Shown: piece by piece, positions 14,131 to 49,461 of the stretch
Layout of the letters: each line of letters starts with the position of its first letter
How positions within the stretch are numbered: position 1 is the first letter of the stretch
From: Collybia mongolica
Taxonomy: Eukaryota; Basidiomycota; Agaricomycetes; Agaricales; Clitocybaceae
Direction of reading: 5' to 3'
NCBI GenBank assembly: GCA_013420905.1
Contig: JAAXNY010000011.1
Coordinates: 2,604,001-2,668,000, forward strand
DNA: 64,000 nt
Program-made: the position numbers and the translations under genes
Notes under the pieces: model-generated
Databases searched by the model: none
Seen by the model: only the letters and a program-made list of their open reading frames with translations
Told to the model about the DNA's origin: nothing

Positions 14131-16242
14131 TAATGACTAGTTTGCTGAGCGTGGAGATGACGCTCTCCAGCTCGGGGACGGGGTCCTAGAGGTGGGGAAG
14201 CGCCAGTGAGCTTACTAAGGGGGACGATGATGGCGTCACCTACTTTGACAGATTTATACTTAGCCAGGATCCACCCGGCGTTGTATCTCTTCTTCCAGAA
14301 GGGGCAGTCCCTCGAATCCGACAGGTGACCAGCGGTTCGACAGTTGATGCACCTGTCTGGGTGGGGGCACGGCTCGTTACCTGGTGTAGCCGCGATAGGT
14401 GGTTTCGCGTTCGGCTGTGCTTTGCAGCACGAGGCCAGTACGCGATGGAAGTTCTTGGCGTGGTTGCCACCACACTTCTGACAGTGGATGCTTTTGGAAG
14501 GGCAAGCCGCCGCCGTAGAGCGGTGCCCGTACCTCCAACAGCGGTTGCACAGGGGCGCCCCAACTCTGGGGGTCGCCTCTGCGAAGCGGAGCCTATGGGT
14601 CCCCCACTGGAATGAGGTTCCCTTGAGCGCTTTAAGATTCAACCCGCCCCGCGAGTCGTATATCTCAAAGAAGAGGTACGCGTTAGACGCGTGACCGGAA
14701 GCTTTCACTACTCTGGGCGGGACAGAGTGGTAGAATCGGAGAGCCTTTCTCTGTTCGGCATTACACCGTTGAAGCAGGACGTTGAGTGCGTCTTGCCCAG
14801 AGATAGGGATTGGTTTGCCATTCTCCCCCAGCTTGGGTTCGAGGCCGTAAAAGGGGAAGTCAGCGACCATCATAGAGGATCTGGACGAGCCAGCCTCCAC
14901 GTAGATCGTGGCATCCTTGACTTCGGTCTGTCCCGCGTTCCACTGGAACCAGCGGTGGATGACCTTGATGTCGGCCTTGGACGGGATGTTGTCAGCTGTG
15001 ATAGTAATGCTACCAAGTGACTGCTCCTCGTGTAGGATCCGGAGTTTGGACTGTGCCTTTGTGAGGGCGTCAGTCAGGGGAGCGCAGCATGGTTTGAGAT
15101 CCCATGGGACTGCAGGAGAAGCGAACACTGTCATCGCTTTGCGTGACAGGCCGTGGGTGGTGGACTTGCGCTTGTTAGGAGCGCTAGGACCGGCTGTTTT
15201 TGGTGTGAGCAGCTCGCTCGCACCCATGACCTGATTCGGGTTTGAGTACGGGAAGGCCTGGGCCAACCTGACTAAACTCTCCTCATGCTGAGTGGTCCTG
15301 GCTTTCTTTTGGTTGGAAGGGCCGGGGGCCAGCGGAGGGGCACCTGCTACTTGCGAATATAGCGGGGCCGGCGGCGCATACATCCCATTCCTGAAAGGAT
15401 TATTGTCGGGGTTACGTCGTTTGGTTTGCTGGAACGTGCCGGGGCGTCGAGCGCCGGCGGGGTCCGAGCCGCAATGAGCGAAAGACCGGTGCCTTGATGG
15501 GTTAGGCAGCTGGCCGGGAGGGACTTTAGGAGGAGGGAACTTGGCGTGGTGGGCCTGGCGTTCCTCCGCAAGGGCAGTGCGAATGGAGGTCGCAACACTT
15601 TCCATGAACGTCCATGTCGAGGACTGGGGGTCCAAGCCACGGAGAGAGTTCCTGACAAACCCATGTTTGACCAGGCTACGGATCAGATGACCTGAGGCCT
15701 CAACGAGACCATCAGATTCTGATGTGTTCCACATCTTTCCATTTTGCGCACCAAATTCAAGGAAGGAGGTGATCACGCGCGCTGAGGAAGCAGCGGATTC
15801 GGTGTCAGAGGTCCAAGTCTTTGGATCGCGACGGAATTGGAAGGAGTATTGCAAGTTAGCATCATCCCCTTCAGCAAATGCATCCGTGGGGATGCCTGAG
15901 ACATCAATCATCTCGGCATCGTCCGTGGGTGCGGCAGCGCAGCCTTTGCCCTTGGCGGTCCGCTTAACAGTAGAGTCTGCGTTATCAGCAGCCTTGAGTT
16001 CAGGGTCCCCCTCCTCGTCGCTCCCGGCGGGAGAGGGGTGGACAGATGAGAAGTTAGCCCTACTGGGCTTCGTCCTCTGAATGCGTAGAGCCCGTTCCAG
16101 AGATTGTCTAGAGTAGCTAATAGCGGGGGATGGAGATTTCGACGGGGGAGGTCGGAAGACGGTGGCAGGGTCGACCGTCCCTGAGCCCCCGGGGGGGGTC
16201 GGGAGGGTTAAGGGGTTTATCTTTAGAGCGAGAGGCAGGCAT
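14130..16242 (-). CDS. LINE ORF1: gag-like RNA-binding protein with zinc knuckles (N-terminal frame interrupted)
   Basis: A long open frame ends at TAA 14132-14130. The RNA-binding part has three Cys/His clusters: CNRCWRYGHRSTAAAC (CX2CX4HX5C), CQKCGGNH, and CINCRTAGHLSDSRDC (CX2CX4HX6C). The only plausible start near the 5' end, ATG 16242-16240 (MPASRSKDKPLN), is in a different frame from the body. The two frames meet at a run of eight C followed by five G on the coding strand (16198-16186). One base fewer in the C run would join them, so this copy either carries a 1-nt indel, uses frameshifting, or has a sequencing error there. The frame open upstream of the run lacks its own ATG. ORF1 proteins of this type bind element RNA in a ribonucleoprotein particle. 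Confidence 0.85.
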
Positions 16243-16356
16243 ACAGCGCAAGAAAGGGTGGGAGCGGGTGGGCTCAACCAGGGAGTAACGGCAGTTTGCA
16301 ACTTTACTACGTGTCTAACCTCCTACCAGGTGGTGGTAAGAGATCAAGAAGAGATG

Positions 16357-19021: not shown

Positions 19022-22000
19022 TCATTTCGCTACTGAACTGAAAGAGTATGTTCCTGAACCTACGCTTACTTGTGTGCCTTGACCATTGGTCCCCATGATT
19101 CTTATACCTCCGTCCGACGGCACAGGCTTTCCACCCTCTAAGACTTGTGCACCCGGGATAGTAACCGTAGCAGTAACGCCGACTGGCACACCGACATCAA
19201 CATTGACGGCCCCCCCACTGTTTGTCCAGTCGACAGTGAGGTTTCCAAATGGTGTGAGCATCCAGGCGTGGGCTGAATTCAAGAAGCCTGTAAGGACAGG
19301 AGCGATGTTAACTTTTTCGAATGCGACTGAGGCCGCTTGAATGCCGGCCATGTGCTTGTATAACCAGTCTTCAAAGGTTCCAAGGAAAAGCTGTTCATAT
19401 CGTCAGTGATGTACCGACGGAGGATTCAAGAGCAAGACTGACATGGTCACGCGACCGTGCTTCCAAGGCCCAGTGCTCCCACTGCGACACGAAGTTAGTT
19501 CTCGCTGGCGTGTAAAAAAAGTGCACAAACCATTGTGTTTGCTCCGTTTGAAATCCAGAATCCCCAGCTCGGGAATGTAGTTTGTTGCGATAGTGCAAAC
19601 GCTACATCAGCATGACCATGATCAGAGAGAACAGGTAGGATGTATTTCGTGCCGAGGGCCCCTGTGTTGAGATGGGTATTTCGGGAGACGACGTCCTGAG
19701 CAATACTATCGGCTACGACCTGGGCTGTGGTTGCATCGGGAGTAAGACCGAACGCAAGAGCTAATAGATTATGCGTTTGACGATAACCACTGTCGCCGCT
19801 TCCTACATAGTGTCCAGCGCTTCTGTTTAAGAATGCTTGGTTAAAAGCGTTTTTAACGTTCGTAGCCTGAGAACTGAATGTGGAGGCATCAGCTGCTTTA
19901 TTGAGAACAGTGGCAACTTGATTCATCGTGGTCAACATCTGGTATCTGAAACGACAGTTTAAGTCAAGGTTAGAAATTTATAGGTCAGGTGTACTTACAG
20001 ATATGCCGTAGCTGACACACGGAGATCCTCAGGTGGGTTGCCGCCGGCAGGACTGGTTTCCGGGGTGACCCAATCTCCCAAGCCCGTCGAAGCAATATTA
20101 TTTGGTGATCGGGCGAGTTCAAAGGCGACATAATTTTTCATGCTGTCGTAATGGTCCTCGAGAACCCGCCTATCACCACGGTATTGGTAAAGCCACCAGG
20201 GTATGAAAATGAAAGCGGAGCTACGAAATTTGTCAATACAGGGACAGTGTAAGCATTTAGAATATAACACTGACTGCCAGGTTGGCGAATGGTTGTTAGC
20301 GCCCCACCCACTGTCCGGTGCGATGACTCCAGGAGGCCCCGATCCATTGGGCCTACTTTCAGCAAGATCGCGAGCATATTTAGCCAACAAATTCTCTGCG
20401 TTGAAGTTGGAAAGGAACATTTCCTGAACACGGAGTCAGTCTTGCCTGCTCTTCGAAGTGGGATTGACTCACAGTGCCCAACATAGCGTCACCCGACCAA
20501 CCATTTTTCTCGAAGGTTGGACAGTCCTCAGGTATACTATGAACATTATTGAGCATAGTGAAAGTCGAGGCTCTGTGCATCTTGTTTAGCAAGTCATTTG
20601 AAGATTGGAACCCGCCACGCGGCTGTAAATCATCATGGACAACTCTGCCAAGGATGTCGGCGGCTGTGGGGGGTGTAGAGCTCGGCCAGCCTTCTATCTG
20701 CACGTATTGATACCCTTTATAACTGAACTTGGGCTCAAAGATTTCTGGGCTTCCAGTTCCAGCAAGCCAAAACCGATCTATGTAAAATATCAGATCGTAG
20801 GGTCCGTCAGAGATCATGTTTCGGCTCACCTGTTTGGAAGTTATTGGCATAGTAATGGCTAGTATCCTCGAAAATCAGTGTTCCGTCGGCCTTGGAAAAA
20901 CAATGAGTTTGATATCTAAAGTGGCATTTGCTTTACATTACCTTCAATTTTTCGCCGAAATGGATTGTGAGCATGGACTTTTTGGGGCCCGTAACAGTAA
21001 TACGTGCCCATCCAGCAACTACGCGTTCGAAAGCAGCTACGAAAATCCCCTTGACGGGCTGAGTGACAGACACTGGGGTCATGGTTTGTACTATGCGAGT
21101 CGGTGGCTGGCGCTGATTCACAAGGACGCCTTTAGGACCCCCCATCAATTGGGCACTGCTCCAACCAGTGGTGGTAAACCCAGCCCGGTCGAAGCCTGGT
21201 TGCGCAAAACTCGCTGTAGATCTGGAGGTGAGCGACAAGCCATGATACCACTAGTTGAAGCTCACCATCATAATTCTCGCCACCAAATACGTCGTCCAGC
21301 CGGGTTGGGCCCTCGATGACTTGCCACGTTGCGTCGGACACTACACGAGTAGTGGTTCCATCAGTAAACCCTATTGATAGCACTGCCCTCAGCGCAGGTT
21401 CCCCGTGCCACGACGCAGTATTCCAATTCCAAACACTCCCTTGCGTTGAGCCGTAATGGCTTCTGCCGAGTTCGACGCCAATAGCGTTTGCACCGGACTT
21501 GAGCTTCGAAGTGACGTCTAAAGAGACGTATTGCATTTGTGTGTCGTATTTGGTAAAGCCTGGTGTAAGGACGTGGTCTGAAGCAGGTACTCCATTGACG
21601 GAGATACTCGCATATCCGCCGGCGGAGTAATGGAGTCGAGCGAATGATATCGTTTTCGAGATCGTAAACTCTTTTCGAAGGAGTGGGGCGGGATGCTCGC
21701 CGAGTGCGTCTGATGCGGAAACGGTACCCCAAGGGCTAACACCGTTCTTTCCAAGAGTTGTGGCCGCAGCCCAACTTGAATCATCCGTTGACGGCAGCTC
21801 AAAGCCGCTAGGGACAGTTTTCGACACCTTCCAACTAGAGTCTGAAAAGATGCTACTTGTAGAACCATCTGTGTATGTTATCTGAATGGCGGCCAGAAGC
21901 CCTGCGGGGGATTCACCACCACTTGTCACATCTGGAAGATTATTGCCCTGAACGGCGAACACCGTTGAGGCCCCTGAAAGAGCAACTGTAAATGGCCGTG

Positions 22001-23296
22001 CTGATTTCCACGCATCTGTCTGGTTGGGAGATGAACCGACTAAAGCACCATTAACATAGAACGTAAAGCCATCATCGACAGTCAGAAGGACAAAGGCCGA
22101 TTTGACTGTTTTCCCGCTAGGTGTGGGAAATGTTTTCCGGAATGCGCGTGGCTGGGCCGGAGCATTCGGAGAGGCTGTCTCCGAAGACCAAATCCACGTG
22201 GAATCGGCTAAACTAACTGTGGGGGCTGTGTCTGTAAGGACGGCCACCTGCGTACCCCATGGGCCTGAACCATACTTAGAAATAACCGTGGCAGCAGCCC
22301 ATTGAGAGTCGTCAAGGGATGGAGATTGAAAATTGGTCGGGATGGATTTGATCGACCGCCAGCTAACATCTGAAGTCACGATAGATGTCGTTCCGTCGGA
22401 AAATGTGATCTGAATAGCGGCGAGGACACCTGCAGGTCCAGCTCCTCCCGTACCAACTTCAGGCAAATTGGTACCTCGAATTGCGAAGAGATTCGATCCA
22501 GACGCCAGAGGGACAGTGAATTTTTGAGCGGTCTTCCAAACATCTACAGTGGTTGGGGAGCTTCCCACTAAGTTTCCGTTGACATAGAACGAGAAGCGGT
22601 CGTCGACAGTGAGTAGAACCAAAGCAGACGTCGCCACTTTTCCACTAGGTGAGGTGAAAGTTTTGCGAAATGCACGATCTTCGGCAGGTGCGTTCGGTGC
22701 GCCAGTTTCGGAAGTCCAAATCCACGAAGCTGAGCGGAATGCCGATACAAGGGCGTCGGGAAGCCCTTGAGTGGGTTTTCCAATCCACAAACTAGAGCCC
22801 CAGTCACTTGAGGCAAGCATTCCTGTTGTGAACTCGGATGATGCGGACGCTAACCCAGCGGGCGTCGCGATGTTGATACTCCAGAAATATCTTGTGTCTG
22901 ATGACAGGGCCGGACCAGCATACTCGATGAGATATGGTTTGGAGGACGTCACGACCCCGCTGTTCCACACATCACTACTGCCTGCCTGTGACTTCGATAC
23001 CAGAATCTGATAGGAAGTTTGCGCAATTCCGCGCTGAGTTGAACTAATAATCCAGGAAAAGCGGGGTTTGACGTCAATTCCGACAGGCGCAACTTTATTT
23101 TCAACCTGAAGCGATGATAAAGTGATGGCTGCGTCTTTGCGATCTTCAGCTATGCACAGATCATCTGGAGTTCATAACGCACTGGCCACAAGGATTTCAC
23201 AGAAACAGACGAAAGCTAACAATAGACATCTCAAGTTTCCTGCTTATCGCATCAGACTATGCATCTCTCGGCAAGCACGGACGTACCTTTCAGCAT
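19022..23296 (-). CDS. GH78 alpha-L-rhamnosidase, secreted, 11 exons, about 1254 aa
   Basis: Exons (minus): 23296-23287, 23239-23201, 23149-21266, 21213-20942, 20890-20830, 20777-20473, 20423-20275, 20220-19999, 19945-19531, 19481-19443 and 19390-19022; 3765 nt, in frame. The junction after exon 2 has two acceptors 21 nt apart. A signal peptide (LRCLLLAFVCF) precedes an Fn3-like N-domain (RFSWIISSTQRG). Two tandem copies of one module follow at about residues 158-310 and 327-480 (SWIWTSE, AFRKTF, VDDRFSFYVNGNLVGSS), then the rhamnosidase N-domain proper (SVNGVPASDHVLTPGFTKYD). In the catalytic alpha/alpha barrel, DCPTFEKNGWSGD carries the expected acidic residues including the general acid, and NGANTM-WEHW, formed across an intron, carries the likely catalytic base Glu. 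It should release terminal alpha-L-rhamnose from pectic or glycoside substrates outside the cell. The duplicated modules are unusual. Confidence 0.92.
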
Positions 23297-23948
23297 GGAT
23301 GTGGGTCTGATAGGGGGGCGCGTTCAAGCGGGACTATAACGATCCGCATCTTTTCGTCCTTCATTTATGAAAGCAATGCTCATCACGCGGCAGTCCTAGA
23401 CCACGATGGTATCAGGTCCCGTGGAAGAGTCGCCTATTTGCATCCTGAGGAACACCAGCCATCGACAAGGAAATGGAAGCCTTTTGGAGTCATTTGGCAG
23501 TGGACCTTGTGGCGAGAAGGGTGAGAAGTATTAGTGCCACGTTTGTCAGCAGCAGAGAAAGGTGGGCACGGTCACGGTCTGCCAGCTCTGCATGATGGTA
23601 TGTTTATAGATCACCCCAAGAATAATCTATAGCGATACCGGGATTTGTTGTCACGTATAGCATATACATAGTTTGGACTGAGAGTGGGCTGCCTTCCCGA
23701 TTTTGGCGCACGGACCATTATCAACACGATCCGGTTTCCATTCCAACTACCCTGGACAAATCCCCCAATACTAGCAGCTATGGTTCACAATCTTGAGGCG
23801 ATGATATACAGTAATGCCACAACATATGAATACAAAAGAAAATGCTACCTAGTCTCCAAAGTGCTGTTGATCATGATCTATGCATCACCAGTTAGTGGCC
23901 ATTCATATCCAATCCGGCCTCTTCTCTTCACCAACAAGAGTAATCCTG
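23297..23948. other. Intergenic, 0.65 kb
   Basis: Promoter region of the GH78 gene and 3' flank of the next minus-strand gene. No coding pattern was recognised. Confidence 0.5.
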
Positions 23949-25606
23949 TTACCCTGTTTTGAGCTGTTCTGTCAGCTCCGTAACCCTTGCCCGCAATCTC
24001 GCAACTTCCAAACTATCACTATCTCCGGAAGCGATCTCGCGGTCTAGTGCCAATACCAGTTCCTCCAACCTCTGTACCCGCACTCTTGTTTCAATGTATG
24101 CGTTGTCCTCTGCACGTTGCATAGCATCCCTGTTCCTCCGGCTTCGTTCAGCAACGGCCGAAATAGACATTGACGGAGATATGGAAGGAAAGTATCTTAA
24201 TGAGGACACAGACGAGGGTACGTATTGAGACATGCTCTGTATACTGTTCCTGTCTCCGTATTCTAAGTCGAGTGGATGGTGTAGTAGTTGAGCTGTTTTC
24301 GTGATGGGTCAGTGAAACTCCATCCGACAAATAAGGGTAGTTACTTCAAAAGCACTACATACCAGGGAGGGTATGATGTCTTGGTTTCTGGCGATACCAG
24401 AGATATGCGACCAGCACCAGGAGAATGATAATGATACTCCCCAACACTGCACCCACAATAACACCAACATTTTGAGTAGTTCCGGCCCCGGGGGTGGGTA
24501 ACACCGTGCTTGAACTTGACGCAGATGGGGAGGAAGTTGACGAAGTCGGGGAGGAAGTTGACGAAGTGATGGATGTCAAAGTAGTAGATGACGGGGGGCC
24601 CCGAGGTTGCCTAACACTCTTCCTCCAAGGGCCCTCACCATACTCTGCCAAGACTTTCACGGGCGGCCACGATGCGTCATCAGAAGATGGAGATCCATCT
24701 AGGATGGCACTATTTGAACGCCAATTACCATCGGAAAACAAGAAAGCAGGCTTTCCTTCAGCGAATGTGATTCGGATCGCAGCAAGAACACCTGCTGGGG
24801 AAGGCTGATTGTTTGAGTCAAGGTTGTTGATACCACGAATTGCAAAATCGGTCCGGGTTGTATCGGGTGCAAGGATAATGTTGTACCAGCGGGCTTGCCT
24901 CCAGTCTGGATTATCGCCAGATGTGCCGACCAGGTTTCTGTTGACATACAAGGAGAATTCGTTGTCGACAGAAAGTAAAACCAAGGCGGATACTGCCGTT
25001 CTATTAGGAGGTGTGTCGAAGGTGCGCCGATATATACGTTCTCCCTCCGGTGCGCTATTTAGGTCGGCATCCGCAGTCCATATCCATGATGATAACGAGT
25101 TGAAGGTAAGTGTAGGAGAAGATGTGTCTGTACGATTCTCAACCTGCCTGGAATAAAATTTGCTCGGACTCGATGGGCCGGTCACAAATTCAGACGATGC
25201 TACCCCTAAGCCAGCAGAGGTTGAAGCGTTGACGCTCCAGATATAATGAGTGTCCAATGTCAACTGGGGACCTGTGTATCTGATGAATTCCGTTCTGTTG
25301 GATACAGTGACACCACTGTTCCATACATCCTCACCACCAGGGCGAAATTTTGAAACTAGGATCTGGTATGATGTCTGTACAACTTCATGCTCAGGGGAAC
25401 CAAAAGTCCAGGAAAAGAATGGCTCTACAAGTGGCCCGACCAACGCCAAATTGTTTTCAACTCGCAGAGATGATAAAGTAACTTGAGCGTCTATGTGGCG
25501 TGTTGGATGGAAATGGGTTGCATTGTTTCTAGGACGTACTAGCTGAAAGGATGATGTAGCACCATAATAAGGCTAACAGCGATAATCCCTGTATCGCTGG
25601 TTTCAT
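23949..25606 (-). CDS. Membrane-anchored rhamnosidase-module protein with cytoplasmic coiled coil (paralogue 1), 512 aa
   Basis: Exons 25606-25540, 25490-24363 and 24292-23949 total 1539 nt in frame. A signal peptide (LSLLALLWCYIILSANA) is followed by VTLSSLRVENNLALVG, which aligns with the start of the GH78 enzyme 650 bp away (ITLSSLQVENKVAPVG), and by its Fn3-like domain (QTSYQILVSK, VWNSGV). One module copy follows (SSWIWTADADLNSA, RRTFDTPP, VDNEFSLYVNRNLVGTS, PAGVLAAIRITFAEG). Then come a Ser/Thr-rich stalk, one membrane helix at about residues 368-391 (VGVIVGAVLGSIIIILLVLV), a basic stop-transfer (RQKPRHH) and a tail with a predicted coiled coil (VQRLEELVLALDREIASG, then LRARVTELTEQL). 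No catalytic domain is present. It may bind rhamnosides at the cell surface or act as a sensor; this is inference. Confidence 0.82.
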
Positions 25607-25893
25607 GGTCAGCATCTATGAGTCATCATTTCCCACAAAACGCACCGTTGAGCATTGTCGTGGACACTGAGGTCGATGAGGGGGGGAAGCTACTAGCTTT
25701 TTGTTGAGATCCCCTCGGCACTCGTGTTGGCGGTGCTCATGATGTATCAGATCCTGCACAGGTCTCCTATATCCACATCTTCAGGGCTCGATCTGCTTCT
25801 CATGGGCTACGTTTGAAAATAGGAGACGCCTTCTTACTCGGTTGAGGCTACAATGTTGATGACGGCATCAAGTAAAAACCTAATTTCGATCAA
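25607..25893. other. Intergenic up to the Helitron relic
   Basis: Upstream region of the membrane-protein gene. No gene is recognised. Confidence 0.5.
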
Positions 25894-25905
25894 ACAAGCT
25901 TACTA

Positions 25906-25924
25906 CCCGTGCCTTCGGCACGGG
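25906..25924. repeat. Hairpin, possible Helitron 3' terminal stem-loop (outer)
   Basis: A perfect 8-bp stem, CCCGTGCC / GGCACGGG, with a TTC loop, 12 bp from an ACAAGCTTA motif that recurs about 1 kb away beside a second similar hairpin. Confidence 0.7.
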
Positions 25925-26054
25925 GGGGTGGCTTGTCCATTCTGAGGACAAATAATATTTACACAAATATATAAAGGGAGTTCCAGATATATGGTCACTG
26001 GAGTGTGGATTGCAGTTGGCCACAAATGCCATTGATTTTTTTTCCCAATACCAC

Positions 26055-26260
26055 AGGCCCCCAGAAGCTCACCTATATGTTTGGAAAACTTTGCTGGATT
26101 TGAGACTCCCAAAAGTTTGAGAAGAGCCAGAGCCCAGATTCACAATCCTCAAAAAGCACTAAAATATGTTTTATGATATAAGCCCTGGCCCATATAGTGG
26201 ATTTAAGGCCCATTCTGGTGAAAAACTTTTCCAAACATATAGGGGAGCTTCCAGGGGCCT
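26055..26260. repeat. Imperfect inverted repeat with about 38-nt arms
   Basis: The left arm (about 26055-26092, containing CCTATATGTTTGGAAAA) is closely matched in inverse orientation by the right arm (about 26222-26260, containing TTTTCCAAACATATAGG), with about 130 bp between. It lies between the two putative Helitron termini and could be a palindromic non-autonomous element or a foldback. Confidence 0.65.
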
Positions 26261-26903
26261 CATACCACTCTAAGGAACAACTGTAAAATTGAAATTTATT
26301 TACAACAAATTACCTTGGTATTTCAGAAGAGATTCATCTGCTTCATTCTTATTTTTACTGTGGCAAGAATAGATGATGAATCATGATCATGGCTTTTGGT
26401 TTTGTAAGTGAGATGGCAATTAGTCTCACAACAAATACAGGTGGTATGTTCCTGCCTACAATCAAGGCACTCTCTAGATTGCACACAATCTTATATATTT
26501 ACCTCAACTGAGCCTCAAAACTATTATGCATGCTTTGATAAGTATTTTGTAATCAACAGGCTATGGCCATGAAATTTTATTTAATTGATTTGACCTTTCC
26601 AGAATGTTCTATGAGAGGGGAGAAAGAAGAATGACACTACTTCCAGATTCCAGCAACACAATGAGCTAGTAGTTAGAAACCTGAGGGCACACATTTTACA
26701 AATTTGATACTGGACACTTTTTGGCCACATGACTAAACAATGTGTCTGATGGCAAATGCCACCTGCTTCAGTTTCAGGCATCTGTTCAATATTTATCATC
26801 TTTCTTTGATTAGTCATATTTTTAGTCAGCAAAGCGAATATTAGGTCAGCAAAGCTAGGGTCAAAACACCCAGCTGTTTTCATGTATAGGACAAGCTTAT
26901 GGC

Positions 26904-26920
26904 CCGTGGCTATGCCACGG
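26904..26920. repeat. Hairpin, possible Helitron 3' terminal stem-loop (inner)
   Basis: Stem CCGTGGC / GCCACGG with a TAT loop, next to ACAAGCTTA at 26891-26899. It lies just beyond the degenerate helicase C-terminus, where a Helitron 3' end is expected. Confidence 0.65.
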
Positions 26921-26965
26921 CACTGCTACACTCACCCATGGCTCTACCACGTAACCTTCAGCTTG

Positions 26966-26984
26966 CTGGGGGCTCTGCCCCCAG
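26966..26984. repeat. GC-rich hairpin inside the Helitron relic
   Basis: Stem CTGGGGGC / GCCCCCAG with a TCT loop. It is conspicuous in an otherwise AT-rich stretch. Confidence 0.65.
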
Positions 26985-27129
26985 ACTCCCATCTTAGTCT
27001 CAATACTTTATTCTATGTTCAATTTCAATATTTTGGATGTAGGCTTTTTTCCCTATTCAAATCATAATCCATATAATACTTCTACTCCAAAGGAACATCT
27101 TTACTGTTAAAGTGACCCTATTGTCTACA

Positions 27130-28113
27130 GTATTTGGTATCATAGCTTTGATTCCATGTACCAATATTACCTGTGAAATCACAATATAAAACTGCCCATG
27201 TATAACTACAGGAGATCTAAAGTCAAGTCCAACTTGGTGTAATCAGTGCCCTTGATATTGGTTAATTGTCATACAGAATCCCAGCTATAAAAGCAGTTGT
27301 GACCATGCCAATTTAAAAGCTATCAGGCTATTAGATGGCATCATTTGGAATCTTGAGATAATTTCTTTATGCCTATCATTTTGCCTCCCAATCAACTATA
27401 CTTCTACAATATGGTTGCTTGTCCATGTTATTATTTCCCTTGACCCATTGTAAAGACTATCAACTGTGTTCAAATTGTGCAATATCATTACATGGCACCC
27501 CACTTTTTAAGTTAGCTTACATAGATAGAGGTAGCCCTGATACATTGATAACATTCAGATATTCAACAGGGTATATTGCTTCAGCTCCATCAATTCCTTC
27601 ATATGCAATACAATCTGCACTGTGGTACATCTTGCCATCTCCAGGAAACATATCCAGTACTTTTTTATTGAGAGAGTCAACATCACCATTTCTGGCAGAA
27701 AGAATAGCTCTCTCAGGGTAAAATGTATCAGGTTTTAGAACAGGGTTTCCAATGTCAGGATATAATGTGTCAGTTAGAGACTCCACAGTATTCTCAGCAT
27801 CATAAAAGTGGCTAGGTAAGGTGACATTTCCATTGCCATCTGTAAGCTTCCCATGGCCAATTTCAATTTGCCATTTGGAAAGTCTCATTTTATCATTAGT
27901 AACACCATATAAGTACAGATTTTTCTTTAGTTTGAGTATTTGAAGTTCATCCCCAGTGGGGAGTGCATAAGACAGGCACCCACAGTCTGCACCATCAAAT
28001 ACTATAATTAGCCTACCAAAGGCTCTATCATCTCCTCTAATATTTTGGAATAGCCAGTTGACTGCATCAAAGGCAACAATGCTGTCCAATATTGTGTAGT
28101 CAATTCCTATCAC
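27130..28113 (-). pseudogene. PIF1/Helitron-type helicase remnant
   Basis: A 198-codon open stretch (28113-27517) reads like the middle of a Helitron helicase: AFGRLIIVFDGADCGCLSYALPTG occupies the place of the VFGGDFRQxLPV motif, followed by FYPERAILSARNGDVDSLN and YPVEYLNVINVSGLPLSM. Downstream, in other frames and with stops, are NLNTVDSLYNGSR and GFCMTINQYQGH with SPVVIHGQFYIVISQV, matching the helicase C-terminal motifs. The Asp/Gln-type catalytic residues of the first motif are not conserved, so the protein is dead. The full helicase would be a 5'-3' motor for rolling-circle transposition. Confidence 0.8.
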
Positions 28114-28866
28114 ATTTGCAAATTATTATGTGAAAAGTTAGTTGTTATTGCTCTAATTTGATAGGGATCAGCTCTATTCAAAATCCTTGGAATCAATGTT
28201 TCTTCTACCTATAATATTTCTCTCAACCATGTATTACTATTTCCCTTACTCATTTGCACTGGATTCCTATTGTTCTAAAGATAGGGTTAGACAGAGAGTA
28301 ATTTTTTCAAAATAGAATGTATCAGATTTTAAAGCAGGCTTTGTAGTGTTAGAACATTTTATGTTAATTTATGGATTAACAACCAAATTGCTCAGATAAA
28401 CTCATTTCCATTTTTATCTGCATGCTTTCCATGTTCTACTTTGATTTGTAATTTTATGGGTAGTGGCACCATTTAAATACTTTTTTTTTTCCAGTTTGAG
28501 CATCTGAAATTTATGAGGCAGCTTAAGGTTAATAGGTATTGTTTGTTATTTGTTGACTTAGTCCGCTTTGGAGGTCATGTGATGTGGTGTTGCAGATCAG
28601 GTGATTAGTATGTGTCTTAGCATGTTACCTGGATAGATTTTTTTTTAAATATATAATGTATTAGTTTTTAAAGCAAGATATGTAATGTTAGAATTTATTG
28701 TGGTAATTAAGGGTGACTTAAGCAGGTGACTTGAGCAGGTGACATGGCATGTGACTTCAACAATTTTCCTGCTTTGTCATCCTTAGTCAGCACTCTACTT
28801 AAAAGACAACTTTTTTGCTGCTTTGTCAGACTTAGTCAGCGCTTAGTCAGGATTAGTCACAATCAA

Positions 28867-30531
28867 ATTCACACGGCCGTAGTACTTTAATATAGACAGA
28901 GAAGATATAGGATGTATGTTGCATTGCGTTATTCGCTCCGGTTCCCCTGTACGATTCGTGGTCCGCGGGAGTGTCCACTCCTGCTTCAATGATCATTGCT
29001 GACAAGTAAGGGACCATCCAATGGCTTGTTGTTGAATGACCCACTACTGGTAGGTACTGTTCCTTTATAACTCGATGATCCACCAACTTAACATGACAGA
29101 TGTGCTGGCTTGCTATGCAACAATCATTGATCATCAAGCCGCCGATATCCATGCACTACGACAAGCATGAAGAGCCTCATTAAAGTTCTGGTGAGATGAA
29201 TAATGCAGGTATCAGGCGGTGCCCGTGAGAAAAGTAAGTAAGAAAAGACGAGCCGTAATGGCTATACTGACCGGCAATTGCCGGTGAACATCAACTTCGC
29301 ATTCGTCACTCCTACCCTCTGTGTTATGTTCCTACTCCCCCAATGCTTCTCAAATTGGCGCAACGCTATATATTTGAGTAGGGTGTGGGCCTAACATGCA
29401 GACTCTGCATTAACGTCTGAAACGACCGTTTCATTACTCTCTCCCCCCAGGTTCTCGCAATTCCCCAATTTGTGGGTCACCCTGGTCCCCATATCTGGAA
29501 GCTATCTCCTGTTCAAGCTTCATAACAAACGTCTCTAATATGAGCTACCATTTCTGTAATCCGGCCCACTCGGAAGTGACGTTGCGCTCTACTGAGCGCG
29601 TGCTACAACATACATAGATGAAGGAAATATCAACAACATGCGTAATGATTCATGCTGAGCTATGGCCTCGCAATTGACTTGATTTGCTATACCATAACCT
29701 GGATGAGCATTGTCCTCGAGGTTCAAAGGAATTAATGTCACTGTTATTCCACACGCTCAACGTCGATATTTGAGCATTGAGAAGAGACGACAAAACCTAC
29801 CTGAAGCGGTATTGTGACTAACCTGCCTTCGGCGCCATAGTTAGTTACGCCCCCGCCTGGTTTGCCTCCGCTTAAGCCATTGATGCTATTTTGATGTATC
29901 GATCAGTCTTATACTGCTTATTCAAACAAGGTTTCTGGGGATTCTCGCGACGCCTCCATCTCCTGACACTCGTTGAGGCTTTTCGCACCTATTATGTGAA
30001 CACAAACGAAACCTTTACAATGCCCTTTTGAATTCACGAAAGCCAACTTACCGTTCTGAAGTGTTACAGGTACAGAAAACGAATATCATGCCATTGGGCA
30101 ACTGTGGGCTTTGTGAGATGGGTTGGTCCCTCAGCTACGTGCTCAACAACAATGGGGGTATGCAATCTGGAGAGGTACCCTGTGCTCGCTTTTCAAATAT
30201 GAGCGACGTTGGCCTAAATAGTCAGAGAGAGCTGCAAAATTGTCGGTTCTCTGTTCGGGGATCTGGGTCATGGCCGACATCGCCTTCGAGCAGGAGTCTG
30301 GCTATACTGTGAGTTTTGTCGTGGTTACGTCATAGCCTCCGTTGATACAATGTCACGGCGTGCCATTCAATGGTCTCGCGGAAGGGGGATCGTCTTTCGA
30401 CTATACACCACAATTATTTATTTCATAATGCTGAGCAAAAGAGGCAGTGATCCTACATAAAGTCTTAAAGTTGAAGAAAGTATGGTTAAATTATCAAAGA
30501 TGGTAGGTAGGATTTAGAAGGATGATACCTT
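28867..30531. other. 1.7 kb without a supported gene
   Basis: CpG content returns to normal immediately right of the Helitron relic. Small open frames near 28853-29152 (-) and 30028-30312 (+) match nothing I know. Confidence 0.45.
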
Positions 30532-32060
30532 TCAATCCCAGTTTGTCTCGTACGCGGGAGGAGGCATGTTATGAGCTTTACCGTCGTGTGGCGCCCCTCC
30601 TGCAAAAGGGTCCCTATTTTGATGCGTCGATTCTGCAACTCGCGAGCCAGCACCTCCCGAAGCAATCTCTCGGTCTAGCTCCAAGACTAGTCCCTCTAAT
30701 CGCTCTATACGATCCCTGAATTCAGTTCCATCACTCCCTTGATCAGCGCGTGACGCAGACATCGACGGGGTTACGGTTGAAAGATACGCTGATGATGCTG
30801 AAGGAGAAGATACATGATGGAAATTTCTTGGAGTGGTGATTTGAGGCTGTGTCATTTCGACCTGGAAGCTATGCTGTGAGGGAGTCGTATGGCCAAGCTC
30901 GAATCTATCGGTTTGAGGAAGTAATGTTGCTGTTTGATAATGATAGGGTAAGTAATCCTATGGAGATTGAGAATATCTGTGGGTTTACGTACAAGCACCA
31001 CGCATACGATGAAGACGCCTCTTCCTCCATAGGAACGCCAGTACCACCAGGAAGAGAAAGACGATCCCTCCAACCACACCTCCTATGATGGCGCCGACTG
31101 GCTGACTTCCGTGTGAAGCGCCACTGTTCGTCGCAGTTGGGGCTGCTGTTGTCTGCTTTGTCGAAGTTGGCGAGGTAGAAACAGGTGAGGTGGAAGCAGG
31201 TGAGGTAGTTGCAGGCGGAACGTCTGCGGGCAGCACAACGTCAGTGCGCCATGGGCCCTCACCATACTTGAAAAGGGCTGAGGCTTGAGCCCACTCAGAA
31301 TCATCAAAGGTCGGTGATTCAAAGTTGTTTGGAATGTCTTTGGTAGCGCGCCAGCCCCCACTGGAAGAGACCAGAGATGTTGACCCATCAGAAAAGGTGA
31401 TTTGAATCGCAGCAAGAACGCCAGCAGGAGTGGGTCCTCCACCGTTTACGTCTGGTAGATTGACACCTCGAATAGCAAAGACATTTGCTGTAGCCGCGAG
31501 GGTAACGTTGTAAATATGTGCGTTCTTCCAGTTATCCAGGGTGGTTGGAGAGCTTCCAATTAGATTCCCATTCACATAAAAGGAGAAACGGTCGTCAACA
31601 GACAGTAGAACTAAAGCAGAGGTGGCCGCTTTTCCCAAGGGCGAAATGAGAGTGTTCCGAAATGCACGATCTAGTGCAGGCGCGTTTGGTGCATCGGTTT
31701 CGGCGGTCCATATCCATGATGACGATTGGAAGACGTCTACAAGGGCTGTCGGAAGTCTTCCATCACGCTTGATGACCTGTGAATTTGAACCCCAGCCAGT
31801 CGATTTCGGTGTGTTTCTTGCGCTAAATTTGATTGGCGCGACTATGCTCTCCACCCAAGCTGATAATGGACGAATTGCTGCACCTTGTGATTTGTTGGTC
31901 AGCGCAGCGATCGGTCTTGGTAATTTTGAAACACACCAGCGACTAGGATTTCGCAGGGTTCGATGACGGTAAAGAGCAGAAGTCCCCAAACCACTGAATC
32001 TTCGTTCAGAGTATTCAACCTGGCTTATCGAAGAAAATCCATACCGTTTAGTATCAACAT
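30532..32060 (-). CDS. Membrane-anchored rhamnosidase-module protein with coiled-coil tail (paralogue 2), 455 aa
   Basis: Exons 32060-32045, 31999-31937, 31883-30993 and 30929-30532 total 1368 nt in frame. The 16-nt first exon (MLILN) and the signal peptide in exon 2 (WGLLLFTVIEPCEILVAG) align with the GH78 gene in sequence and intron phase. The Fn3-like N-domain is reduced to a stub (IRPLSAWVESIVAPIKFSA). A well-conserved module follows (SSWIWTAETDAPNAPA, VDDRFSFYVNGNLIGSS, AGVLAAIQITFSDGSTS), then a Ser/Thr repeat stalk, a membrane helix (IIGGVVGGIVFLFLVVLAFLW) and a basic flank (RKRRLHR). The cytoplasmic tail has ERLEGLVLELDREIASG, as in paralogue 1, and ends PPPAYETNWD. No catalytic domain is present. 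A cell-surface binding or sensing role is inferred. Confidence 0.8.
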
Positions 32061-33448
32061 AGATGTGGGACCAGAATGAGAAGTAAAGCGAGCTCGCTGT
32101 CGCCATCAATCTTTTTAGATTAAATGTTAAGAAAACGCCCATCAGGTGCCGGCGTAAATATATTCCGAAGGTCCACACAACAGCTAACCTTTCCTGCCAA
32201 ATACCCAACAGCGCCCTCCTGTCAGTATGGCAATGATAGGATCAAGCTATATATAGCTCGAGAGAAAGTCTCCTGCAGATTCCGTATCAACTAGAATACT
32301 GGTAAAGAATTCAACGGGCAGACCCTCTTGGAAAGATAGATCTTGTGAGGCTCAACGCCTGTGAGAAACCCATTGACGCATAGCTTTTTCGATTTGTAAT
32401 AGGTCGCCCGTTGCTGGTAACCTCAGCGGCTATCAGAAAGAAGGTCCCGAATGTCAGGATAAAATGATTCCGGATGTAGGTGTGGATGTCGCAAAAGCGC
32501 TTCTTAATTGTTGGGTAACTGCGAGTATTGCTGCGTTGCGCCTCTTTGTACAAAGCAGTGTTATCATTCCTAGCCCCCCTCTCCCACACTATTCGTATCG
32601 CTCCTGTTATATATCGGGTTATGCAAGGCTACGGTGCTATACCCAGGGTATGAGCACACAGTACATATCCGTCATCGAGCTGCGAACTTCGGGAAGCAGG
32701 GATTGGGGGTAACATATGGACTGAGTGGGCGTACAAACAATCTTCTGATTCTCCAGGCTGTGTGGGTAAACCTCGTTGACAGAGGCTTGATGGTTGAAAT
32801 GGCACGCCTGTGCTTTTTTATTTCCTCCACCTCGCTGTCATTTATCCCTGAAACTTGCTGCATGTAGCGTCACATCCCTTGTTCAAACTTCCACAGCCCC
32901 TACTAGTACCAGGTGCTCCGGGATATAATTTTAATCACTCGTGGACAGGATGAGGTCGATTTTACCAATGAGGAAAAGGCTGGATACATGAGTACAGAGA
33001 CATTCACCTGAGAACTTACAGTGTTGTCTCTATTCGTTGTATCACTCCCTCGTTGGGTGGCGACGACAGTCAATGAAATAGGACGACTCGGGAGTCGGAA
33101 ATTTTCGTTGAAGTAGACACGCTTATATAACAGACACGTGGTTTTGAAAAATTGCCCCGCAAAATTCTTCCGAAAGCCCTTCTTGGACGAGACTTAAAGT
33201 TGACCCTTGAGCAATTCATTGAACTCTGCCATGTGCGAACAGGCGTCGCGAAGATCGGTACACATAGCATAAATCCTTTGCGAGCAGACAACGCTTAATA
33301 TTTAGAATCAGCCCTTAATCCGTTCGGTAAGGCTTAAACTATATAGTATAGTGGTCCATGGGCCCATGATTTTCACTAAAGCTGGCGACGTAGCCTCGTA
33401 TATTGGCTTGCTGGTAGTATGACACTAACCGCACTATCGGGGGGGAGC
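32061..33448. other. Intergenic, 1.4 kb
   Basis: Several short open frames on both strands, none recognisable. It includes the upstream region of paralogue 2 and the 3' flank of paralogue 3. Confidence 0.45.
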
Positions 33449-34558
33449 TTAGGTTCGAAAAATGGCCGAAGATTTGTGCTGTGCCATGTTTTCGGGGCCC
33501 AGCGCAGGTGGGTCGGTCGGATTGTGGCGATTATGCCCAAAATTGAAAGGTGATACATGTTCGGCTATGTTTTTCATGTTAATTGGTTGATGAAGATTGT
33601 CCAGGAGAGATCCAAAAAAGAAAAGAAAAAACATACTAGAATCTCCATTCAACTTGCGTCTTCCACGTCTGTCATGCCTGCCACTCAGCTGCAGGAGTAC
33701 CATCACGATAAGGAGCAAAAGAATGGCACCCCCGAGTACGCCTCCTACAATGGCACTGACTGGTTTGTTTGTGCTGGGTTTAGTCGCGGCTGGCGGAGAC
33801 GTTGGGACTGGAATGGTTATGGATGAGGGGGCAGTACTTTCGCAAGTTCGGGAGATGGGCAGAGTAATTTGAAGCGCTGTGTCCGAAATGATGGATACTC
33901 TAGTACCCCATTCGCCATCCCCATATTTGGCAACTAAGGTAACTAGATCCCACAGAGAGTCGTCGAAGGCCGGCGTCTCAAAACCGTATGGAACATCTTT
34001 CAAGACACGCCACCGGCTGTCACTTGAGGTCAACATCGATGTAGTTCCATCGGAAAATGTGATTTGAATCGCAGCTAGAATACCGGCTGGACTAGGACCT
34101 CCATTCACAGGGAAATTGAGACCCCGGATAGCGAAGACATTCGATGTAGGTTGGAGGGTGACATTGTATATCTCGGCGATGGTCCAGTCGCTCGAGCCGC
34201 CAATCAAATATCCGTTGACGTATAAGGAGTAATTGTCGTCGACAGAAACTACAATGAGCGCAGACATCGCCCGTTTCCCATCGGGAGTGACAAGGCTGGC
34301 CCGGAATGCACGTTCTGCTTTTGGAGGCGCTTCGATTAGGGTGTTCTCCGCAGCCCATGCCCACGATGCTGAGTGGAAGACACTCATAAGTTCTCCCACT
34401 TCATCACGCTTTCCATTGGGAAAACCCAGATACTGGGTGGTTTCCGAGGTCGGGATTCTAATGGTAGATTCTGTCAACGACGCAACCACTGGATGTTTTT
34501 GGACCATTAGCGGGATGGGTCTTGGGACACGGTGTGAACTAAACTCACCAGAACTCAT
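33449..34558 (-). CDS. Rhamnosidase-module membrane protein lacking signal exon and coiled coil (paralogue 3), 325 aa
   Basis: Exons 34558-34549, 34488-33637 and 33564-33449 total 978 nt in frame. The 10-nt first exon ending in phase 1 matches the first-exon pattern of the GH78 gene and paralogue 2. The next exon starts directly at the region after the signal peptide, so the predicted N-terminus (MSSVVASLTESTI) has no signal sequence. One divergent module follows (SASWAWAAENT, AERAFRASLVTPDGK, VDDNYSLYVNGYLIGGSS, AGILAAIQITFSDGTTS), then a Thr/Pro stalk and a membrane helix (VSAIVGGVLGGAILLLLIVM). After a basic segment, the short tail (HVSPFNFGHNRHNP) has no coiled coil. Without a signal it may be mislocalised or decaying, or an upstream exon was missed. 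Confidence 0.68.
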   Translation of the reverse strand: MSSGEFSSHRVPRPIPLMVQKHPVVASLTESTIRIPTSETTQYLGFPNGKRDEVGELMSVFHSASWAWAAENTLIEAPPKAERAFRASLVTPDGKRAMSALIVVSVDDNYSLYVNGYLIGGSSDWTIAEIYNVTLQPTSNVFAIRGLNFPVNGGPSPAGILAAIQITFSDGTTSMLTSSDSRWRVLKDVPYGFETPAFDDSLWDLVTLVAKYGDGEWGTRVSIISDTALQITLPISRTCESTAPSSITIPVPTSPPAATKPSTNKPVSAIVGGVLGGAILLLLIVMVLLQLSGRHDRRGRRKLNGDSSMFFLFFFGSLLDNLHQPINMKNIAEHVSPFNFGHNRHNPTDPPALGPENMAQHKSSAIFRT

Positions 34559-39273: not shown

Positions 39274-42200
39274 TCAGATGCCAAGGTGGATGAAGGGCAT
39301 CCACTGGTGGCAGGGTGCACCCTCTCTCCTAAGTTTCTGAACAGCAAGATGCAGTCCGACAGCAGCCATCTTCACATCTGGGATATTGTCTTCCCCAAGA
39401 ATTGTTTGATAGACAGTTTCAGCCACCTTAGGTCCGTAGGCATCAGGGATACTCCAGAGTGTTCCAATGGCTCCCTGAAACCCAGCAGCAAGGAACCCTC
39501 CGGCGAGATGCATAGCTTCATTCATTAGCTTTGCATCTCCCATAGCAGTCTCACAGGCAGACAAATACACAAATTTGGCATTTGGTAGATTGAGGTCCAG
39601 GATGGTGGCAAGTTTCAGCTTCCCATCATATAACATAAGGCCACTTTGTAGTGGATCCTGTGGATCTTGGACACCATGAGATGCAATGTGTAACCAAGGT
39701 GACAGTTGCATTCCCTTTACTACATTCTCAATAGTTGCCTGTGAGTTGCGTAGTTCCTTAGAATTTGTTCCAAATTGCAAGGTAACATGGTCAAGTTCAA
39801 CTCCCACAAAAGGCAGCATAGCTTGTGTTTTCTGGTCAGCTGATGTTTCTATAACCCCAACTGCGGTTAAGGTGTTATGGGCATGAGGGAGTAGCTTTCT
39901 AGAGTTTGCTTGGTTGAGGGTATCCAAGGTTGGAGTATAGGACTGGACAAATTTGCTGTCCACAGGTGCAGCTGCATGAAGAGGAAGATATGTAAATGGC
40001 CCTGAAGGGCACCACCAGAGCCTTCCACTATTGATGCCATTCTAAATGAAACTAGAATGAGTAAGGAATCAGAGTTAGCAATTCAAACTTACCTCATTAA
40101 GGACATCAAATATTGGCTTTACCACAGCTGTCCAGATCCAGGAAGCAACAAAATCAAGTATCTTATCTGCTGGAGCAATGTGACCTGAGCTGGGTTTTCC
40201 AAATCTATATTCCCTGGAATTGATATGAAACTGCTTTAAAGCATCACCCAGTTGTGTCTTCTGCTCTTTGATAGCAGCTGCAGTTACTCCAGATAGAACA
40301 AGGTGAACTGGAGGTGCATGTGGTGAAAGAATTATGATGGCATCAGTCTGATCTTCAGTATAATTCAACATGATGACAGGCCCATCTTTAGCAGCTGAAC
40401 CAAGATTTGAATATTTTGGTGACAACATAAAATCCTCAAAGCCAGGGTGTTCACGGATTTCAGCAATTAACTGAAGCCTTTTATGAGCTAGTAGGTGGTA
40501 ATTGACAACTGAATCAGCTGGTTGAGAAGTGCCTTGTAATTGGATAGAGAGCTCATGAAGTTTCCTGGACTGTGAAGGCAACTCAGCTTCAAGTTTGTTA
40601 TGTCCAATCTTGAGCTGCAACATTTGTTGATATGTGGTGCCCAATCCTTGTTCTAAATATTCTACTGCAAGTGGTATGTCTGGTATCTTCAGAGCAGTAA
40701 CAACAGCCACAGATATGAGTTTTGAAACTTCATGTCTGATTAAAGTATCATGTCTTACTCCAAGTGAGTTGCCCAACCACAGAACAGATGGAAGAATTCT
40801 CACTGCAGTGTCACATGCTTGTTGTATGTAGGGTAATTCAAAAACATCAGTGTTCCTGATAAACAACACTGCAGCATCCCAGATATGCTGAGGAGAAGCA
40901 GTAGTAGACTGCAAAGCTAGTTGGTATATTTGCAAAGCTTTATTGAGATCATCTTGATCAGCTGCTTCACTTCTGAGTCTGTCAAGGTAGTTTTCAGCCA
41001 AAATAGCCTGCTTTACAGGTAGATCAGGGTGCCCATCAGGAGATGCAGTTACAGCAGCAAGGCCATATTTGATGGCAGCCTCTAGATCCCGTATGTTTCC
41101 TGTCATTTGATACATTTCTTTATAGGTGATTGATAGATTGTGGTGTCTGCCTGATAACTCAGGGTGTCCTTCTGGAGTTACAGCTACAGCTAACAAGTCA
41201 TACTGCAGTGCAACCTCTAAATTCTGCAGGTCATTGGTTTGTTTGAACAGATCTTTACAATAAATGGCAAGGTCTCGGAGCCTAGTTGGCAATTCAGGAT
41301 GCCCTTCTGGTGTTGCAGCTACAGCAGCTAGACTATACTTCAAGGCAGCTGCCAAATCCTCTACATCCTGAGTCATGATGTACCTGTCTCTGTAAGATAC
41401 AGCTAAGTCACTTTGCTTCCCTGGTAAGTCAGGATGGTCCTCTGGAGTTCCAGTTAAAGCTGCAAGTCCATAATCAAGTGCAGCTTCCAGATCCTGCAAA
41501 TTCCCAGTTCTTCTATATCTGTAATTATAGGACACAGCTAGATTTTGTTGTCTACTTGCCAGATCAGGATGTCCCTCTGGGGTAGCATTTACTGCAGCTA
41601 AATCATACTGGAGTGCACTCTCCAGATCTAGCAAATTTCCAGACATTCTGAACTTATCCTTGTAGGATATAGCTATATTGTGGTGTCGATTTGGCATGTC
41701 AGGATGTCCTTCTGGTGTTGCAGCCACAGCTTTCAGATCATACTCCAGTGCAGTCTCCAGATCATGTTGGTCCCCTAGCACCTTGAATCTATTCTTGTAG
41801 TAAATAGCCAAATTCTGATGCTGAACAGGCAAAAAAGGGTGCTCCTCTGGAGTTGCAGCCACAGCCTCTAGTGCATATTTCAATGCAGCCTCCAAAGCCT
41901 CCAAGCCCCCAGTCTGATTATATCTTTCGTAGTGAAATGCAGCCATATTAACCTGGCGACCAAGAAGCCCAGGATCCCCCTCTGGGGTTATAGTCACAGC
42001 TACTAATCCATACTCAAGTGCAGCTTCCAGATGCTGCAAGTTTCCAGCCCTTTTATATCTGTCATTATAGGAGATGGCTAAGTCCTGGTAGAGCACTGGC
42101 AAGTCAGGATGCCCCTCTGGAGATGCAGCTACAGATGTCAGATTACACTTGAGAGCAGACTCTAGATCCTGTAGATTTCCAGTCCTTCTGAAGAGGCCCC

Positions 42201-42612
42201 TGTAAGACATAGCTAGATTATGATGCTGGCTCGGTAAACTGGGATGCCCAATCGGAGTCGTCGCTATAGCTTCTAGACCATACCTGATCGAAGCTTTGAT
42301 ATCATCTAGATCCATTGTCCAGTCATACTTATCACTGTAAATCATAGAAATGTGGGATAAACCCATCGACAGGTGAGGGCTCTCCCTTGAAAGCCCGGAC
42401 ACGCCCGCCAGGCCATATCTGAGCCCATGCTCAAGATCTTCGATATTCCCAGTCTCAGTGATTTTGCCGCGGAATATGGAAGAGAGATGCAACAGTTGCC
42501 AGGCAAGCTCAGGATCGCCAAGCGATAGTTCACACAGGGGCTCAATGACTTCTTGAAAGTTCGATATCTCAATGCCTGGGCCTTGTTTGTTAGTTTCGTT
42601 CATGCGAATCAT
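39274..42612 (-). CDS. TPR-CHAT protein (tetratricopeptide repeats plus caspase-like CHAT domain), about 1095 aa
   Basis: Exon 42612-40093 is joined in phase 0 across a 51-nt intron to 40041-39274. The N-terminal half holds ten repeats of about 47 residues with the motif TPEGHPDLP...NLAISYKDRF...TGNLQDLEAAL, which are TPR-like helical hairpins. The C-terminus is a CHAT domain with the catalytic pair in LHIASHGVQ (His) and VYLSACETAMG (Cys), then GAIGTLWSIPD. CHAT domains are caspase/separase-related proteases often found in NLR-like or cell-death systems. TPR-CHAT genes are expanded in Agaricomycetes and their substrates are unknown. An upstream exon (ATG 42763, MSDIQPEETGIDLER) could splice in phase instead of the start at 42612. 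The gene body is CpG-poor. Confidence 0.88.
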
Positions 42613-48474: not shown

Positions 48475-48548
48475 AGGGCAGATTTATCTCAAACCTCAGT
48501 TCACACCCCAACCAGTTTTCTACCACCCGAAATCAGACTTGAAACAAC

Positions 48549-49461
48549 ATGAAGCTCTCTGCCGTCGTTGGTCTCGCTATTCTTGCCCAAAGCGCATCGG
48601 CCCACTGTATGAAACCTCTCCACTAGGCCTATTTGTTCCTCACAGTTTTGCTCTAGATATCTGGTACAACCTAATCGCAGGAAGTACCCAGTCGACGGCC
48701 GCTGTTCGAAAACCCGTCAGTAACTCGCCGGTTGAAAGCGTTACTTCAAACAGCATTAGATGCAATGCCAACCCCATGCCCGCCACTCAGACGGTCACTA
48801 TCGCTTCCGGAAGTACCATTGGGTTCCAGCTAGACAACACTATCTATCACCAAGGCCCTGCTGCGATATACCTCGGGAAAGCTCCTAGTACAGCCGCAAG
48901 CTGGGATGGAAGTGGCTCTAATTGGTTCAAGGTGCGCCTCACTCAATTTTCGTTTTGCTCGATATCAACGAAGAGATCTAGATCGCTGAATGGGGCGCAA
49001 CCTTCAACCCCTTCGGCTTCACCGATTTGAACGCAAGCCAACTTACTACGACCATCCCTGCCAACACACCACCTGGCGAGGTATTGAATGCTGTTATACT
49101 ATTTTCCTGCGTTGAACACTCATTTGCGCTTGCAGTACTTGGTCAGAATTGAACAGATCGGTCTGCATGTGGCTGGTGCCCCTCAGTGGTACATCTCCTG
49201 CGCCCAGATCAAGATAACTGGTTCTGGAAGCGGAAACCCCTCAAAAGTATCCATCCCTGGATACGTGTCTGCCTCAGGTAAAGCGGTCCTTGTGACTGTC
49301 AAAAAATGGTTCTGATGTATTACAGATCCCGGCCTCACTGTCAACATCTATAACCCTGTTCCCACCTCCTACAAGGTAAGGTCACTCCAGGACATATATA
49401 CGGATCATTTAATTGAACATATGATGACCAGGTTCCTGGACCTGCTGTCTGGAGGGGATAA
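48549..49461 (+). CDS. AA9 lytic polysaccharide monooxygenase A, six exons, 217 aa
   Basis: Exons 48549-48606, 48657-48931, 48982-49080, 49136-49277, 49326-49375 and 49432-49461 total 654 nt. The signal peptide MKLSAVVGLAILAQSASA precedes mature His1 (HYIWYNLIAG), whose codon sits just before the first intron. The second copper His is in YHQGPAAIYLGKAP, and the axial Tyr and its Gln are in APQWYISCAQIKIT. The C-terminus is SY-K-VPGPAVWRG, with no CBM1 or linker. It is a short single-domain AA9 secreted to attack cellulose or related glucans with O2/H2O2. Gene B, 310 bp downstream, has the same exon lengths and intron phases, so the two arose by tandem duplication. Confidence 0.95.

Follow-up and report, generated by a model that had tools for sequence, protein, structure and literature searches.

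The genes g1 and g2 of Collybia mongolica probably encode membrane-anchored, calcium-dependent lectins that were assembled from the signal peptide, the Ig domain and the first carbohydrate-binding module (CBM67) of a GH78 alpha-L-rhamnosidase, and that carry a working cytoplasmic tail. They were identified in a window of 64,000 nucleotides (contig C11, positions 2604001-2668000) of the C. mongolica genome, which comprises 46 Mb in 26 contigs. The minus strand of this window contains an intact GH78 alpha-L-rhamnosidase gene together with three genes, g1, g2 and g3, that bear the same module but have no catalytic domain.

The rhamnosidase locus and its membrane genes

The spliced model of the rhamnosidase (19022..23296, minus strand, as are all features of the four genes) has 11 exons and encodes 1,260 amino acids composed of a signal peptide, an Ig domain (PF25788), two modules of the CBM67 or Pleurotus ostreatus lectin (POL) type (module 1 at 22257..22727 and module 2 at 21729..22202), and the domains PF08531, PF05592, PF17389 and PF17390; its second intron is short (33 nt), and a 39-nt alternative exists. 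The g1 gene (23949..25615) was modelled with three exons and 515 amino acids and has a signal peptide, an Ig domain, the module (24625..25092), a Ser/Thr stalk, a membrane helix and a tail of 128 amino acids. The g2 gene (30532..32060) has four exons, the first intron being 51 nt in its spliced model, and encodes 446 amino acids in which the Ig is lost; a linker follows the signal peptide, and then the module (31249..31722, 69% identical to enzyme module 1), the stalk, the helix and a tail with PPAY near its end. The g3 gene (33449..34558) has two exons and encodes 345 amino acids with no detectable signal peptide, a module (33908..34366), a stalk, a helix and a short tail. The introns of all four models are of the GT-AG type and their reading frames are open, and in the enzyme, g1 and g2 a phase-1 intron follows the signal peptide. 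No words common to the upstream regions of the four genes were found at E 0.5 or better.

The module, approximately 158 residues long, is present in five copies, two in the enzyme and one each in g1, g2 and g3, which were detected both as protein and as DNA repeats. When the g2 copy served as query, its four counterparts in the window were recovered at E 1.6e-38 to 6.7e-69, which bears out the proposal of the initial annotation that the three genes share a module with the adjacent GH78 enzyme. Its estimate of five copies in approximately 15 kb also agrees with the measured spans of 12.6 kb for the modules and approximately 15.5 kb for the four genes. Past the Ser/Thr-rich stalk, the hydropathy profile of each of the three proteins has one strong internal hydrophobic stretch, at residues 369-387 in g1 (24406..24462), 290-308 in g2 (31033..31089) and 270-288 in g3 (33695..33751), with three, six and six Lys or Arg, respectively, in the next 15 residues. 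The stalk, single helix and tail described earlier in place of the catalytic domain are therefore recovered in all three models; in Pfam, the six-hairpin domain PF17389 is present in the adjacent enzyme and absent from g1, g2 and g3, in which no known signalling domain was found either. The N-termini of g1 and g2 are signal-peptide-like and none was found for g3, as had been read from the letters, and g1 keeps the N-domain of the enzyme, which corresponds to the Ig domain PF25788 (E 2.5e-14). Judged by hydropathy only, g1 and g2 are predicted to be secreted to the surface with the module outside and the tail inside. An artefact of the gene models was ruled out because the helix and the tail are conserved in another species.

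Several other elements were observed in the window. A LINE-type element with an endonuclease and reverse transcriptase ORF, plus an upstream ORF, occupies 10285-16301, and an inverted repeat with 38-nt arms that are 89% complementary lies upstream of g1 at 26055-26260. At 39274-42612, an ORF that matches TPR only weakly, below the cut-off, precedes a CHAT-domain ORF. Two similar gene pieces on opposite strands lie at 48539-49030 and 51554-51886, the latter being AA9.

Module identity, fold and predicted sugar site

By profile comparison, the module is identified as the CBM67/POL jelly roll, which is already known. A profile of 11 modules, with g1, g2 and g3 included, was compared with the PDB and matched POL at E 7.8e-77 and residues 138-292 of SaRha78A at E 6.7e-21, and the homology extends over the whole jelly roll of the CBM67/POL-type lectin domain. 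Both PF08531 and CBM67 had been put forward earlier for comparison with the module, and it is CBM67/POL that the profile and the fold match agree on; PF08531 (Bac_rhamnosid_N) gave 12.5 bits for g2 against a curated cut-off of 25, and g1 and g3 were not listed. The AlphaFold2 model of the g2 head (pLDDT 84.7, pTM 0.82, 13 sequences) matches the fold of POL, including 6kc2 with rhamnose, and of SaRha78A with rhamnose (3w5n). For the Ig plus head of g1 (pLDDT 77.8, pTM 0.61, 20 sequences), POL and SaRha78A were among the best PDB folds; the model aligned with SaRha78A over 305 columns at an rmsd of 23.6, and the rmsd was 13 or more in all ten top PDB rows, so that the orientation of the g1 domains is unreliable.

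In the SaRha78A chain numbered from residue 138, D, N, W, N and P fall at 179, 180, 203, 228 and 233, and D179, N180, W203, N228 and P233 are the residues reported by Fujimoto (2013) to form the calcium and sugar site. All five positions are kept in g1, g2 and g3 as D, D/N, W, N and P, the g1 residues being D, N, W, N and P. All 10 external one-module membrane proteins keep the first four, and seven of them keep the proline. Over 62 rows (59 modules, SaRha78A and two POL domains), Asn 228 is conserved in 62, Asp 179 in 60, and Trp 203 and Pro 233 in 55 each. The only two rows without the calcium-site Asp are the first modules of two-module membrane proteins of Mycena (P0020 and P0021), which have V at this position.

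The nearest solved structures differ from g1-g3 in architecture. POL (PDB 6t1d, 6kc2, 6li7) consists of the same jelly-roll module and was solved with rhamnose, melibiose and GalNAc, the PDB titles naming glycerol as a further ligand; its solved chains have two modules and have F or Y where g1-g3 have W. The CBM67 of SaRha78A from Streptomyces avermitilis (PDB 3w5m, 3w5n) agrees at all five site positions, including W203, but it sits in an enzyme, whereas the module of g1-g3 is freed from the catalytic domain and carried on a membrane helix. POL is not known to have a membrane helix. Stand-alone lectins of the CBM67 type have been described before in mushrooms (PMC11512411, PMC7827401). For instance, the shiitake lectin Shictin is described as having one CBM67-type domain of 159 amino acids with two Asp in its calcium site; it resembles g1-g3 by description, and its architecture is given as a signal peptide, the lectin domain and a C-terminal domain of 94 amino acids, with no mention of a membrane helix (PMC11512411). 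Counts of genes for galactose-binding-like domains, the superfamily to which CBM67 belongs, reached 84 and 89 in two Armillaria species, and 13 and 29 of these genes were upregulated in invasive versus non-invasive mycelia. The initial annotation knew of no described system of this kind, and this holds for the membrane form, since no description of membrane-anchored CBM67/POL proteins was found in searches of the open-access PMC literature, but not for the module, which is that of a known lectin.

Relatives, genomic copies and descent

A full-length match (100%) at 51% identity links g1 to a protein of Collybia nuda, so that the anatomy of g1 is more than a chance arrangement. Two homologue searches, each of which scored only the approximately 8,000 candidates sharing the most words, so that the lists are lower bounds, returned 7 and 17 proteins with two common to both. 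They include at least 10 external one-module membrane proteins: P0001, P0004, P0008 and P0010 of C. nuda (Clitocybaceae); P0015 of Sphagnurus paluster, P0005 of Blastosporella zonata, and P0006 and P0017 of Tephrocybe rancida (Lyophyllaceae); and P0013 and P0014 from a metagenome. All four named species belong to Tricholomatineae. The recurrence of this architecture in other fungi supports the earlier suggestion that the non-catalytic part of a rhamnosidase was duplicated and turned into a membrane-anchored protein.

The fusion of module and helix, for which a search of other genomes had been suggested together with its co-location with GH78, thus occurs in other fungi, but co-location was seen only in C. 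mongolica. In T. rancida and Sphagnurus, both a membrane protein and an enzyme are known, on contigs of different size, and no C. nuda GH78 enzyme was found among the 120 of 380 enzyme-front matches listed, despite at least four C. nuda membrane proteins; the tie to the activity of the enzyme is therefore weak. P0001 and P0010 of C. nuda probably share one contig, as both lie on contigs that measure 754706. The enzyme-front query, for which again only the approximately 8,000 candidates richest in common words were scored, returned mostly two-module enzymes of agarics, plus bacterial ones, among the 120 matches listed. Seven large GH78-domain proteins (P0072, P0076, P0078, P0079, P0080, P0086 and P0087), bacterial where named, have three modules each, the third of which scores about twice the others or more.

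A search of the C. mongolica genome with the module, in which, as in the other genome searches, the best candidates only were scored, returned 14 matches, of which five lie in the window, six on contig C5 and one on contig C8; the other two are a fragment on C11 (2917193-2917324; 44 module positions, 41% identical, E 1.1e-4) and a match at E 0.8 that we do not count. The six matches on C5 (3722198-3729059) belong to three tandem genes for two-module POL-like lectins with a signal-peptide-like start, which are 85-95% alike over 333 codons with dN/dS of 0.11-0.18. Among the best candidates scored, PF25788 was found in two places, the enzyme and g1, 2.1 kb apart; PF05592 and PF08531 were found in one place each, the enzyme; and PF17389 was found in three enzyme exons and weakly in one further place, C11:2742464. 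The latter is a six-hairpin gene approximately 75 kb past the end of the window, matched by PF17389 only. Because g1 keeps the Ig of the enzyme, a domain that the genome search placed nowhere else, its descent from the front end of the enzyme is well supported.

In a tree of 59 modules, one group among the first modules of enzymes unites g1, g2, g3 and the C8 copy with the four rows of C. nuda, at a support (92/86) below the mark of the tool for full support. Within this tree, g1 pairs with P0001 (95/58) and g2 with P0008 and P0010 (98/95), and the four membrane rows of Lyophyllaceae fall with POL-type lectins and bacterial rows, apart from g1-g3. When the Ig was added to the module, g1 grouped with P0001 and P0004 (100/99), and P0013 and P0014 grouped with the C. 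mongolica enzyme (100/98), for which a second origin or gene conversion could be the explanation. One clade of all 14 membrane rows was not rejected on the modules (p-AU 0.354); addition of P0012 of Psilocybe gave p 0.042, and addition of the two-module membrane proteins of Mycena gave p 0.205. A single origin of all seven membrane rows on Ig plus module was rejected (p 0.027). Joining the eight-row group to the POL-type lectins was disfavoured without being rejected (p-AU 0.221), and a clade uniting this group with the first modules of enzymes from related species was absent from the best tree but not rejected (p 0.184). Several of the groupings were defined only once the tree had been inspected, and long branches among the lectin rows drew a warning from the tool. 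We read the trees, together with the tail matches given below, as pointing to one main origin before the split of Clitocybaceae and Lyophyllaceae, and perhaps to a second event in a species closely related to C. mongolica, although the trees allow other readings. The two modules of P0012 both fall with those of enzymes, which together with the p of 0.042 points to a separate origin of this protein.

The nearest copy of g3 elsewhere in the genome, on C8 (3094486-3095225), is frameshifted, with the module and the membrane helix in different frames, and its site W is replaced by F. Neither one-intron nor two-intron exon scans found a signal peptide for g3 or this copy, and shuffled g3 upstream sequence yielded a signal-peptide solution in 0 of 20 cases. 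The one-intron scan recovered the signal peptide of g1 and missed that of g2, while the two-intron scan recovered that of g2 and the signal-peptide exon of the enzyme, the latter with a slightly different downstream junction. Both g3 and the C8 copy look degenerate, and g3 may be a third copy that is losing its function. These two copies, and the LINE nearby, speak for a reading in which the region is rich in repeats, parts of the enzyme were duplicated again and again, and the membrane genes are functionless by-products. For g1 and g2 this is very improbable, as they have relatives in C. nuda, tails conserved above the stalk and intact site residues, and their dN/dS is below 1; against enzyme module 1 it is 0.15 for g2, 0.33 for g1 and 0.31 for g3, values that are only rough because dS is 1.2-1.4, near saturation.

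Tail conservation and possible function

The comparison of g1 with P0001 of C. nuda gave identities of 61/102 in the Ig, 82/155 (53%) in the module, 13/52 (25%) in the stalk, 18/24 in the helix and 70/120 (58%) in the tail, and that of g2 with P0010 gave 118/158 (75%) in the module, 19/50 (38%) in the stalk, 15/23 in the helix and 61/134 (46%) in the tail. The tail of g1 is thus level with its lectin module, the tail of g2 is less conserved than its module, and both exceed the stalk, which is 50-52 residues long (67 in P0001). By E-values for a set of ten tails, those of g1 and g2 match the tails of P0001, P0010, Sphagnurus P0015 and Blastosporella P0005 and are therefore shared across families. 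In the C. mongolica genome, the last part of the g1 tail retrieved no place other than g1 and g2 with an E of 1 or less among the best candidates scored. PPxY is present in five of the 10 proteins examined, two of the five being two-module proteins of Mycena, and absent from g1, g3, P0001, P0006 and P0010. The conserved tail lends some support to a role in signalling.

In the mechanism that we propose, a signal peptide, an Ig and a first CBM67 module would have been copied from the rhamnosidase and joined to a membrane anchor, and a Ser/Thr stalk of approximately 50 residues would hold the lectin head near the plasma membrane. The predicted head would bind sugar via a calcium ion, with rhamnose or a sugar of the galactose type as the most likely ligand. 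The conserved tail in the cytoplasm, which has a charged heptad-like segment and, in g2, PPxY, may then relay binding by recruitment of a partner or by uptake; a PPxY motif would fit recruitment of a WW-domain ligase. As a stalk of 50-52 residues would measure about 20 nm if stretched, the head would be placed in the inner wall, where it may meet soluble fragments or wall sugars and not the plant surface.

Alternatively, the proteins might be plain surface lectins of defence, adhesion or wall cross-linking, resembling POL-type lectins fixed to the cell, in which the helix serves as an anchor alone and the tail has no part in signalling. Lectins that combine two modules of this fold with a signal-peptide-like start do occur on C5 and in other Agaricales (P0016, P0019), Psilocybe P0012 and Mycena citricolor P0022 are two-module lectins that end in a hydrophobic stretch plus 2-3 residues, as for a lipid anchor, and the lower conservation of the g2 tail relative to its module fits as well. 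However, the g1 tail matches its module in conservation and exceeds its stalk, the tail is common to another family, and a head that a stalk of this length would leave inside the wall is poorly placed for adhesion. We regard plain lectins as unlikely, though with an appreciable chance of being correct.

The WSC/Mid2 sensors of yeast, whose tail acts on Rho1 via an exchange factor, follow a plan in which a signal peptide and a carbohydrate-binding head precede a Ser/Thr stalk, a single helix and a short tail. The overall plan of g1 and g2, judged by hydropathy, is similar, and on this reading their heads might grip sugars of the fungus's own wall and their tails report wall stress. The heads are unrelated, as the module is CBM67 and no WSC domain was matched by Pfam in g1-g3 up to E 1. 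A wall-stress sensor is accordingly improbable.

Membrane-anchored lectins with a working tail thus stay our preferred reading of g1 and g2, for which sugar binding, the ligand and the function of the tail are predictions from sequence comparison. A more specific and distinctly speculative extension, which we hold to be doubtful, is that of an enzyme-derived glycan receptor in Tricholomatineae, which would sit in the plasma membrane, read rhamnosylated plant fragments in its vicinity and signal their presence through a dedicated tail; on this view, agarics would have derived surface lectins from this enzyme on more than one occasion.

The detection of extracellular plant wall polymers by fungi is poorly known, and the membrane receptors for plant sugars that have names are few. 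What is new here is the anchoring of an already known lectin fold, and with it a route by which a carbohydrate-binding module may leave an enzyme and become a surface protein. Predicted membrane lectins whose fold has been solved, whose predicted site is intact and whose tail is conserved would provide a concrete candidate for plant-sugar detection in these fungi.
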